In this document: piece by piece, positions 24,356-27,912 of the stretch | How positions within the stretch are numbered: the stretch's first letter is position 1 | Layout: each line of letters begins with the position of its first letter | Source: Alphaproteobacteria bacterium | GTDB lineage: Bacteria > Pseudomonadota > Alphaproteobacteria > Micropepsales > Micropepsaceae | Assembly (NCBI GenBank): GCA_028292825.1 | Contig: JAQGLO010000028.1 | Coordinates: 1-40,455 of the forward strand | Direction: 5' to 3' | Length of the DNA stretch: 40,455 nt | Translations under genes and position numbers: made by a program | The notes under the pieces: generated by a model | Databases searched by the model: none | The model's input: the letters and a program-made list of their open reading frames with translations, nothing else | What the model was told of the DNA's origin: nothing

Positions 24356-24760
24356 CTATTTCGGGGGTCCGTTCAATGCCCAAAGCACACCGAAAGGGTC
24401 CTTGACCTGACCATAGCGGTCGCCCCAGAACATGTTCTCGGGCTTCATCACGGCAGTGCAGCCCGCCCCCACGGCGCGGTCGAACCAGATGTCGGCGTCC
24501 TCCACCCGCAGCATGATGCTGAAGCCCGAATGCGGCGCCACCGGGTGGCCGTGCTCGGGGTAGAAGTCACTCATCATGACAGATGAGCCATTGATGTAGA
24601 GATGGGCATGCATGGTGCGACCCTTGTCATCGGCCGGCATCACCATAGCCACTTCGGCCGCCAGCGCTTTCTGGTAGAAATCCACCGCCTTCAGGGCGCC
24701 CTCGATCGACAGATAGGCAATGGCGCCGCCCTTGATTTCGGGACGCTGTTCTTCAGTCAT
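24356..24760 (-). CDS. VOC family protein (glyoxalase/PhnB-like)
   Basis: A 134-residue vicinal-oxygen-chelate protein. The two beta-alpha-beta-beta-beta halves are visible: AIAYLSIEGALKAVDFYQKA with MHAHLYINGSSVMMSD, and GFSIMLRVEDADIWFDRAV with WGDRYGQVKDPFGVLWAL. Members include metalloenzymes and small-molecule binding proteins; the activity here is unknown. ATG 24760 has a strong AAAGGAGA five bases upstream. Its promoter has the exact TGTCGG-N17-CGTCCTT pattern shared by the two other ECF-type promoters in the cluster, marking it as a sigma-factor target. Confidence 0.92.
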   Translation of the reverse strand: MTEEQRPEIKGGAIAYLSIEGALKAVDFYQKALAAEVAMVMPADDKGRTMHAHLYINGSSVMMSDFYPEHGHPVAPHSGFSIMLRVEDADIWFDRAVGAGCTAVMKPENMFWGDRYGQVKDPFGVLWALNGPPK

Positions 24761-24785
24761 GATAATCTCCTTTGGTTATGCCTTT

Positions 24786-24815
24786 AAGGACGGCGTCGCG
24801 CAGAGCGATCCGACA
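24786..24815 (-). promoter_or_regulatory. ECF-type promoter P1 (VOC-DUF72-GNAT operon)
   Basis: Minus strand: TGTCGG (24815-24810), 17 bases, CGTCCTT (24792-24786), then 25 bases to the VOC start. The two hexamer/heptamer boxes and the spacing are identical in P2 and P3. Confidence 0.82.
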
Positions 24816-24831
24816 CTTCGATTGTGAAACT

Positions 24832-26073
24832 TCATCCCGCATCCTGCAGCAGCCGGTCCAGGTGCTGACGGATATGGGCCGCCTGCGCTGGCGTATCGGC
24901 CAGCGCGATGGCGCGATCGAAAGCCGTTCGCGCCTCAATGTTGCGCCCCAACTGCAACAGGAATGCCCCGCGCGCCCCGAAATAGGGAAAATAGCGGCCC
25001 AGTTGCGCCTCCAGCGGGGCGATCATGTCCAGCGCCGCCTGCGGTCCATGCAGTTTTGCTACCGCCACGGCACGGTTCAGCGTAATCACGGGCGAAGGCT
25101 GCATCCGCTCCAATGCCAGGTACAGCCCGTCGATACCCGCCCAGTCCGTGTCGGCGGCGGTGGCGGCTCGGGCATGGGTGGCGGCGATGGCCGCCTGTAC
25201 CTGATAGGGGCCGGGCCGGTTGTGGCGCAGGGCCTTGTCGACCAGCGCCAGGCCTTCCTGGATCGCGGAGGCATTCCACAGCGACCGGTCCTGGTCGTCC
25301 AGCAACACCGCTTCGCCATCGACATCGAACCGCGCTGCCAGCCGCGCCTGTTGCAGCAGCATCAGCGCGGCGAGCCCCATAATCTCGGGCTCGGTCTGGA
25401 ACAGGCGCAACAGCATCCGCGCCAGACGGATGGCCTCGTCACACAAAGGCGCGCGAACGGGATCGTCGCCGGCGCTGTAGCCTTCGTTGAACAGCAGATA
25501 GAGCATGGCTGCCACCACGCCCAGACGTTCCGCACGGTCTGCGGGACCAGGCGCTTCAAACGGCACCTCGGCCCTGGCAATGCGCTGCTTGGCGCGCGTG
25601 ATACGCTGCTCCATCGCCGCCTCGCTGACCAGGAAGGCGCGCGCGATCTGAGCCACTGTCAGGCCGGACACGATGCGCAGCGCCAACGCGATCTGCTGCG
25701 TCGCCGGCAGGTCGGGATGGCAGCAGATGAACAACAGCCGCAGGACATCGTCACGATACTGCGAATCGTCCAGCCGCTCGGCCAGCGGGGTCTCCACATC
25801 GTCCAGGTCGGAAATCACGTCATCGGGCGGCAGCGGGCCGTTGCGCGCATCCTTGCGCACCCCGTCCAGCGCGGCGTTGCGGCCGACCAGGATCAGCCAA
25901 TTGGTGGGATCACGCGGCGGACCATTTTGCGGCCAGTTTTTCAGCGCGCGCAGGCTGGCTTCCTGGAACGCCTCCTCGGCCCGGTCCATGTCGCGGAAAT
26001 AGCGCAGCAGCGCACCCACCGCCTGCGGGCGGGCCGCGGTTATCGCGCCATGGATCCACGCCATGTCCGTCAT
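24832..26073 (-). CDS. ECF sigma factor with C-terminal TPR-like extension (ECF42 type)
   Basis: A 413-residue sigma factor. The sigma-2 region covers about residues 5-75 (FRDMDRAEEAFQEASLRAL, then NWLILVGRNAALDGVRKD). Sigma-4 covers about 105-160 (QIALALRIVSGLTVAQIARA, then VSEAAMEQRITRAKQRI). A helical extension of 250 residues follows (GVVAAMLYLLFNEGY, AIRLARMLLRL, VITLNRAVAVA), as in the ECF42 group, where it replaces an anti-sigma factor and affects activity. No anti-sigma gene is present. ATG 26073 shares one base with the stop of the YCII gene (TGATG), so sigma and YCII are one operon, transcribed from P2, which carries the same motif as the targets. That implies positive autoregulation. 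Confidence 0.93.
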   Translation of the reverse strand: MTDMAWIHGAITAARPQAVGALLRYFRDMDRAEEAFQEASLRALKNWPQNGPPRDPTNWLILVGRNAALDGVRKDARNGPLPPDDVISDLDDVETPLAERLDDSQYRDDVLRLLFICCHPDLPATQQIALALRIVSGLTVAQIARAFLVSEAAMEQRITRAKQRIARAEVPFEAPGPADRAERLGVVAAMLYLLFNEGYSAGDDPVRAPLCDEAIRLARMLLRLFQTEPEIMGLAALMLLQQARLAARFDVDGEAVLLDDQDRSLWNASAIQEGLALVDKALRHNRPGPYQVQAAIAATHARAATAADTDWAGIDGLYLALERMQPSPVITLNRAVAVAKLHGPQAALDMIAPLEAQLGRYFPYFGARGAFLLQLGRNIEARTAFDRAIALADTPAQAAHIRQHLDRLLQDAG

Positions 26074-26462
26074 CAATAGGCCTTGACCACTTCCCTGGGC
26101 GCATTGGGCCGGGCTTCCGGCACATACAGCGCGATGGGTCGGATCTCATAGGTGCTGGTGGGGTTGGCATCCGACAATTGACGCGCCACGTCCAGGGCGC
26201 CTTCCAGGTCGGGCACGTCGATCACATAGAAACCTAGCAACTGTTCCTTGGTCTCGGCAAAGGGGCCGTCGATCACCAAGCCCGGCCCGCGCACCGTGGT
26301 GGCGGCGGTGGTGGGCAGCAGACGCAGGGAGGGACCCAGCTTGCCTTCCTTCACCAGCTTTTCATGCACCACCGCCAGGCGCGCCATGACGGCGTCGTCT
26401 TCCTCCTTGCTCCAGGACCAGACGACGTCTTCCTTGTTGTAGCAGAGAAGGGTGTAGAGCAT
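26073..26462 (-). CDS. YCII/DGPF-domain protein, partner of the ECF sigma factor
   Basis: A 129-residue YCII-related protein with the name-giving DGPF motif in VIDGPFAETKEQLLGFYVID. Other landmarks are the first strand MLYTLLCYNKED and LEGALDVARQLSDANPTSTYEIRPI. DGPF proteins are the hallmark neighbours of ECF42 sigma factors; their biochemical role is unknown. ATG 26462 has AAAGGTG upstream, while the longer frame to 26504 would cross promoter P2. It is first in the operon and the sigma gene follows with a one-base overlap. Confidence 0.92.
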   Translation of the reverse strand: MLYTLLCYNKEDVVWSWSKEEDDAVMARLAVVHEKLVKEGKLGPSLRLLPTTAATTVRGPGLVIDGPFAETKEQLLGFYVIDVPDLEGALDVARQLSDANPTSTYEIRPIALYVPEARPNAPREVVKAY

Positions 26463-26483
26463 CGCGCACCTTTGAATTGTTCG

Positions 26484-26513
26484 AAGGACGCGCAAGTATG
26501 CCAAAGCCCGACA
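26484..26513 (-). promoter_or_regulatory. ECF-type promoter P2 (YCII-sigma operon)
   Basis: Minus strand: TGTCGG (26513-26508), 17 bases, CGTCCTT (26490-26484), 21 bases before the YCII start. Same boxes and spacing as P1 and P3; back to back with P3. Confidence 0.83.
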
Positions 26514-26543
26514 TGTGACGGAAAAAATAAATCACCAAGTTCC

Positions 26544-26573
26544 TGTCGGGACCGTCCCATTTCCGCCGTCCTT
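26544..26573 (+). promoter_or_regulatory. ECF-type promoter P3 (SRPBCC-VOC-YCII operon)
   Basis: Plus strand: TGTCGG (26544-26549), 17 bases, CGTCCTT (26567-26573), 34 bases before the SRPBCC start. Its -35 lies 30 bases from the -35 of P2. Confidence 0.83.
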
Positions 26574-26607: not shown

Positions 26608-27063
26608 ATGGCCCACGAAATGTCCTTTACCCGCCTGCTGGATGCCCCGGCCGACAAGCTGTTCCGGCTGTGGACCGATCCCGCCCGCATGCCGGAATGG
26701 TTCTGCCCCAAGCCCTGGACGGTGCGCGATGTGCAAATGGACATACGCCCCGGCGGCGCCAGCACCATGACCATGCAGGGGCCGAACGGCGAAAGCTTCC
26801 CCAGTCTCGGCCAGTATCTGGAGATCGTACCGAACCGCCGCATCGTCTTCACCGACGCCTTCACCGGCGACTGGAACACCAAGGACGGCGCGCCCTTCTT
26901 CGTGGGCATCGTCGAGTTCGAGCCCGAAGGCGACAAGACCTGTTACACCTGCACCGTGCGCCACTGGAGCGAGGAAAGCCGTTCCCAGCATGAACAGAGG
27001 GGCTTTTACAGCGGCTGGGGTATCGTCGCCGACCAGTTGGAAGCGCTTGCGAAAACCATTTGA
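26608..27063 (+). CDS. SRPBCC / AHSA1-like domain protein
   Basis: A 151-residue START-like protein: FTRLLDAPADKLFRLWTD, MPEWFCPKPW, VQMDIRPGGASTMTM, then VPNRRIVFTDAF and the C-terminal helix FYSGWGIVADQLEAL. The fold binds hydrophobic ligands; the ligand is unknown. ATG 26608 has a strong CGGAGGA five bases upstream, and the frame's earlier start at 26515 would cover promoter P3. It is the first gene of a three-gene plus-strand operon (SRPBCC, VOC, YCII) divergent from the sigma operon, a common gene content around ECF42 sigma factors. Confidence 0.92.
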   Translation: MAHEMSFTRLLDAPADKLFRLWTDPARMPEWFCPKPWTVRDVQMDIRPGGASTMTMQGPNGESFPSLGQYLEIVPNRRIVFTDAFTGDWNTKDGAPFFVGIVEFEPEGDKTCYTCTVRHWSEESRSQHEQRGFYSGWGIVADQLEALAKTI

Positions 27064-27073
27064 GGAGCACGCC

Positions 27074-27538
27074 ATGACGGTAAGAAGCATCACGCCCTTT
27101 CTCTGGTTCGACACCCAGGCCGGGGACGCCGCGAACTATTATGTCTCGCTATTTGCCAATTCGCGCATCCTGCAGACCTCCCATTATGGCGACTTCATGC
27201 CGGACAAGGCCGGCCAGATCATGGTGGCGGATCTGGAACTGGCCGGGCAACGCCTGACCTTCATGAACGGCGGTCCCCACTACAAGCTGGATGCGGCCTT
27301 CTCGCTGTCCGTGGCCTGCGAGGACCAGGCCGAGCTCGACCGGCTATGGGAAGCGTTGAATCACACGCCCAGCGCCTGCGGATGGACGACAGACAAGTTC
27401 GGCGTTGTGTGGCAGATCAACTATGCCGGCCTGCCCGAACTGATGCGCGACCAGAAGCACACCAACAAGGTGATGGCCGCCATGATGACCATGATCAAGA
27501 TCGACATCCAGAAACTGAAGGATGCCGCGGCCGCATAG
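27074..27538 (+). CDS. VOC family protein (PhnB/3-demethylubiquinone methyltransferase-like)
   Basis: A 154-residue protein of the PhnB-like branch: ITPFLWFDTQAGDAANYYV, SLFANSRILQTSHYG, LELAGQRLTFMNGG, FSLSVACEDQAELDRLW and WTTDKFGVVWQINYAGLPEL. Despite an old family name (3-demethylubiquinone-9 3-methyltransferase), members have no methyltransferase fold and their activity is unknown. It begins ten bases after the SRPBCC gene with TGAGGAG as ribosome site and is followed after 23 bases by the second YCII gene, so it is the middle member of the P3 operon. Confidence 0.91.
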   Translation: MTVRSITPFLWFDTQAGDAANYYVSLFANSRILQTSHYGDFMPDKAGQIMVADLELAGQRLTFMNGGPHYKLDAAFSLSVACEDQAELDRLWEALNHTPSACGWTTDKFGVVWQINYAGLPELMRDQKHTNKVMAAMMTMIKIDIQKLKDAAAA

Positions 27539-27561
27539 CCGCCGGGCCAAGGAGACAGACA

Positions 27562-27912
27562 ATGCGTGTGATGGTGTTTGTGAAATCCACCGAGGATGGC
27601 GAAAAGGGCCTGTCCCCGCAGCCCTGGACAAGCGAAATGATGGCGGCGATGGGCCGCTTCAATGATGAACTGCGCGCCGCCGGCATTCTGGACATCTGCG
27701 ATGGCCTCCAGCCCTCCGCGCACGGCAAGCGTGTCGCATTCGATGGCACAAGGCGCACCGTGATCGACGGGCCGTTTGCCCATCCCACCGAACTGGTCGC
27801 CGGCTTCTGGATCTGGAACGTCAAGGACATGGAGGAGGCCGTCGCCTGGGTGAAACGCTGCCCCAACCCCATGCCCGGTCCCAGCGAGATCGAAATCCGG
27901 CCTTTCTATTGA
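27562..27912 (+). CDS. YCII/DGPF-domain protein (second copy)
   Basis: A 116-residue YCII-like protein with VIDGPFAHPTELVAGFWIWN (DGPF motif) and a C-terminal EIEIRPFY. It is distantly similar to the YCII protein in the sigma operon. ATG 27562 has AAGGAGA upstream with good spacing. It is the last gene of the P3 operon and faces the ArsC-like gene; the 29 bases between the stops show no clear terminator. Having one DGPF protein in each divergent arm is noteworthy. Confidence 0.92.
   Translation: MRVMVFVKSTEDGEKGLSPQPWTSEMMAAMGRFNDELRAAGILDICDGLQPSAHGKRVAFDGTRRTVIDGPFAHPTELVAGFWIWNVKDMEEAVAWVKRCPNPMPGPSEIEIRPFY

Follow-up and report, generated by a model that had tools for sequence, protein, structure and literature searches.

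Gene content of the cluster and identity of its sigma factor

The window, by which we mean the whole 40,455-nucleotide stretch analysed, contains a cluster of genes arranged in three transcription units. On the minus strand, a VOC (glyoxalase superfamily) gene (24356–24760; PF00903, E 1.4e-16) makes up the first unit, and a YCII/DGPF protein gene (26073–26462; PF03795, E 3e-21) forms the second together with a gene for a 413-amino-acid sigma factor (24832–26073). This YCII–sigma operon runs from 26462 down to 24832. The third unit, the SRPBCC–VOC–YCII operon (26608–27912), lies on the plus strand and comprises an SRPBCC (AHSA1-like) gene (26608–27063; PF08327, E 7e-31), a VOC-type gene of the 3-dmu-9_3-mt/PhnB-like kind (27074–27538; PF06983, E 5e-37) and a second YCII gene (27562–27912; PF03795, E 2e-14). 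The stop codon of the minus-strand YCII gene overlaps the sigma start codon as TGATG, so the two genes are probably translationally coupled; the most likely start codon of the sigma gene is the ATG at 26073, not an upstream TTG. The DGPF motif of the YCII protein is invariant or nearly so in the alignment. The VOC, SRPBCC and YCII families are small-molecule-binding or detoxification-type, so it is reasonable to guess that the cluster responds to a reactive or toxic metabolite.

The sigma gene product matched sigma2 (PF04542) and sigma4 (PF08281) above the cut-off, with no match to sigma1 or sigma3, and carries DUF6596 (PF20239) at residues 183–281. In an AlphaFold2 model built from 26 relatives, the C-terminal extension was all-helical repeats up to residue 412; this half of the protein had a pLDDT of ∼90, and low-confidence stretches fell in the sigma part. 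With the model as query, Foldseek retrieved both ECF sigma factors and TPR proteins, with modest E-values (∼1e-3 to 1e-2 for TPR), and Pfam TPR_2 was found in the extension below the cut-off only. On this modest fold similarity and the sub-threshold Pfam match, we describe the predicted extension as TPR-like; ECF42 members have a C-terminal extension of ∼200 residues containing TPR repeats. A sequence search for a solved structure of a full-length relative returned ECF sigma domains only. Among the neighbouring genes scanned, no anti-sigma factor family was recognised, which agrees with the sequence-only reading that had preceded this analysis. The genome assembly (2.94 Mb, 82% complete) contains a single DUF6596 sigma gene.

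Multiple lines of evidence support the earlier proposal that this is an ECF42-type sigma factor. A TPR extension and a YCII neighbour are features of the ECF42 group (reviewed in PMC8999054), and here a YCII (PF03795) gene lies directly upstream of the sigma gene. The protein shares 67% identity with the sigma factor of the RpoE10 (ECF42) locus in S. meliloti. We recovered the S. meliloti promoter sequences in two loci (L103 and L104), and both promoters at the sigma locus are base-for-base those printed for SMc01151 and SMc01149 (PMC6180224); therefore, the sigma factor encoded there is RpoE10, which is classed as ECF42. In addition, the target promoter expected of this group (TGTCGR, 17 nt, CGTC) lies before the cluster's own genes, as it does in the RpoE10 promoters. 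Domain make-up, predicted structure, the YCII/DGPF neighbour, the identity with the RpoE10-locus protein and the shared promoter motif together support assignment to ECF42. Pseudomonas putida ECF-10 and the Streptomyces venezuelae ECF42 proteins Sven_0747/4377/7131 also combine a TPR-like C-terminal extension and a YCII/DGPF neighbour with the absence of an anti-sigma factor (PMC8999054), and are more distant.

Promoter motifs in the cluster and across the genome

A pattern scan of the window for TGTCGG-N17-CGTCCTT gave exactly three matches: P1 (24786–24815, minus strand) before the VOC gene, P2 (26484–26513, minus strand) before the YCII–sigma operon and P3 (26544–26573, plus strand) before the SRPBCC operon. 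Indeed, the sequence-only reading had picked out these three sites by their shared TGTCGG, 17 intervening bases and CGTCCTT. Dinucleotide shuffles of the window contained 0.00 ± 0.00 matches. Genome-wide, the same three sites are the sole exact copies in the 82% complete assembly, in which the reversed control pattern has one exact match; the motif does not occur at chance frequency. Allowing one mismatch added five sites across the whole assembly, four within open frames and one between plus-strand frames and directed away from them. With two mismatches there were 88 sites vs 155 for the reversed control, i.e. no excess in the whole assembly. Relaxing the −10 element to CGTCNT yielded one extra site (CGTCAT) in the assembly, which coincides with an acyl-carrier-like gene's start codon, and counts equal to those of the control (4 vs 4). 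We rejected this site as a promoter of that gene because it is too near the start codon. Further targets in the genome were likewise rejected, since the one-mismatch sites lie in frames or face away, sites with two mismatches do not rise above background and the CGTCNT site falls on a start codon. The regulon had been called complete, but in an 82% complete assembly further targets could be missing.

By analogy with the mapped start of S. meliloti SMc01149, 9 nt after CGTC (PMC6180224), transcription is predicted to begin at 24780 from P1, 26478 from P2 and 26579 from P3. Direct reading showed a purine-rich ribosome-binding site and then an ATG downstream of each predicted start; the predicted P2 leader is 16 nt, with AAAGG ahead of the ATG at 26462. 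The −35 boxes of P2 and P3 are divergent and separated by 30 bp, and the gap holds an A/T tract (26522–26532) that reads as a T-tract for P2 and an A-tract for P3. In relatives, a T-tract is conserved ahead of P2, and A-tracts ahead of P1 and P3.

The closest known system is the S. meliloti RpoE10 regulon, which consists of SMc01151-rpoE10, SMc01149-SMc01148 and SMb20475-SMb20474 (PMC6180224). The SMc01149 promoter is TGTCGG-N17-CGTCCTT, those of SMb20475 and SMc01151 are TGTCGG-N17-CGTC, and the SMc01149 and SMb20475 operons were induced by RpoE10 overexpression (PMC6180224). The likeness to ECF42-type promoters, suggested in the sequence-only reading, is thus an identity with published RpoE10 promoters. 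The two systems share a YCII–sigma operon, SRPBCC and glyoxalase-like targets, TGTCGG-N17-CGTC promoters (one of them with CGTCCTT) and sigma factors that are 67% identical. In contrast to the single cluster here, the S. meliloti targets are divided between the chromosome and pSymB, and its SRPBCC operon is placed downstream of the sigma gene, not in divergent orientation to it.

Conservation of the sites in relatives

We examined conservation in a sample of 80 alphaproteobacterial loci. TGTCGG-N17-CGTC was present upstream of the YCII gene of the YCII–sigma operon in 61 of 79 regions, upstream of the SRPBCC (AHSA1) gene in 15 of 16 and upstream of the VOC gene in 16 of 22. The 17-nt spacer was almost universal, and other lengths between 5 and 30 nt gave at most two sites in any set. 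P2-type sites usually ended ∼22–30 nt before the YCII gene. The conserved −10 core in relatives was CGTC followed by C or T (A less often) and then T; the full CGTCCTT was typical at P1 and P3, and was one of several variants at P2.

The family is present in 14 of 61 related genomes. The exact motif adjoins the sigma gene in six genomes (G000, G003, G016, G030, G036 and G044), and all three sites are kept in the same-genus genomes G016 and G030. The cultured relative Hyphomicrobium facile DSM 1565 (L010) likewise has all three. In 47 sampled relatives that lack DUF6596, the motif was at background, ∼0.2 per genome. Distribution within the genus is patchy, with a DUF6596 sigma gene in 10 of 37 genomes including this one, a pattern suggestive of recurrent loss or transfer.

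Beside other DUF6596 sigma genes, at five loci from the same genus or class, we found TGTCGA-N17-CGTC and not TGTCGG; −35 recognition therefore seems to differ between branches. The Streptomyces venezuelae ECF42 proteins named above have a TGTCGA-type −35.

Two other origins for the three sites were considered. As a common sequence ahead of three neighbouring transcription units, they might not be ECF promoters but operators for a conventional DNA-binding regulator. However, the motif is asymmetric, consists of two blocks at a fixed 17-nt spacing, is directed towards the genes at promoter distance and is identical to mapped ECF42 promoters, which makes this reading very improbable. Even less credible is that the sites arose by chance or by recent duplication of one promoter segment. 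Their clustering within 1.8 kb would fit such an origin, but chance is ruled out by the shuffles, the genome scan and the conservation, and recent duplication by direct reading of the spacers and flanks of P1, P2 and P3, which are mutually dissimilar as had been claimed. In addition, relatives conserve each of the three sites separately, contradicting both.

Regulation of the sigma operon and the P2 spacer element

The cluster is very probably a self-contained ECF42 regulon of one sigma factor and three TGTCGG-N17-CGTC promoters, with activity most likely gated by the extension. The sigma factor produced from the YCII–sigma operon would direct RNA polymerase to P1, P2 and P3, and so to the VOC gene, its own operon and the SRPBCC–VOC–YCII operon. 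Its activity would be held and released by the TPR-like C-terminal extension instead of an anti-sigma factor, and the extension probably contacts a partner, e.g. the co-encoded YCII protein. P2 would provide positive feedback, with basal sigma perhaps supplied by a second promoter that overlaps P2. Regulons of the same layout and motif have already been published, and the cluster is a further ECF42 example of a stress-type switch known from other bacteria; it adds a compact, single-cluster regulon from a draft alphaproteobacterial genome.

Positive autoregulation through P2, as put forward from the position of this site, is likely from the conservation of the motif before the YCII gene, but fared less well in comparison with S. 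meliloti. There, overexpression of RpoE10 left the YCII-rpoE10 operon unchanged despite an intact upstream motif, and its 5′-RACE start overlaps the motif (PMC6180224). Because the S. meliloti operon is unresponsive, autoregulation here may be weak, masked or absent. As the P2 motif is kept across the class, autoregulation is worth re-testing after the S. meliloti negative.

The P2 spacer contains CATACT (26495–26500, minus strand), which belongs to a conserved, P2-specific element. CATA.T occurred at spacer position 8 in 20 of 35 non-redundant P2 sites vs 0 of 29 P1/P3 sites (Fisher p 2e-7, a value that ignores shared ancestry), and in 12 of 24 non-redundant P2 sites outside Bradyrhizobium. 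It was seen in many P2-type sites of loci L006–L084 and also in four others (L092, L094, L100 and L115), with the consensus GGGCATA.T. In ten P2 sites CGTC has decayed to CGTT, and the element is kept in nine of them. A search for a TTGACA-like −35 at a suitable distance from CATA.T gave best matches of mostly 3/6, hardly above those at P1/P3.

This second element in the sigma operon's own promoter, previously unreported, may give basal expression: CATA.T may act as the −10 in a housekeeping promoter that overlaps P2, supplies basal sigma and starts near CGTC. More generally, and only tentatively, P2-type promoters of alphaproteobacterial ECF42 systems could be interleaved pairs, in which the spacer of the ECF42 promoter carries a housekeeping −10 (CATA.T) at position 8. 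If so, basal sigma would come from the same 30 bp that carry the feedback, and the two holoenzymes would be mutually exclusive. The element bears on how basal levels are maintained for a sigma factor that lacks an anti-sigma factor. An overlapping promoter could also explain why the S. meliloti operon did not respond and why its start lies on the motif, although CATA.T is absent there at the P2 offset.

A stronger version holds that P2 is not driven by ECF42 in practice, the housekeeping sigma factor using the overlapping CATA.T and only P1 and P3 being true ECF42 targets. The unresponsive S. meliloti operon with its start on the motif points this way, as does a −10-like sequence that is conserved, at a single offset, in P2 sites alone and persists where CGTC has become CGTT. 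We nevertheless consider it unlikely, since TGTCGG-N17-CGTC precedes the YCII gene at most loci and is better kept than the spacer element, CATA.T has no clear TTGACA-like −35, and S. meliloti, where the operon did not respond, lacks CATA.T at this offset. ECF42-directed transcription from P2 as well as from P1 and P3 therefore remains the preferred reading.

In six Bradyrhizobium loci, P2 has CGTT at the −10 and, ∼2.4 to 3.6 kb upstream of it, there is a TGTCGG-N17-CGTC site; in these loci a longer transcription unit may have taken in the sigma operon.
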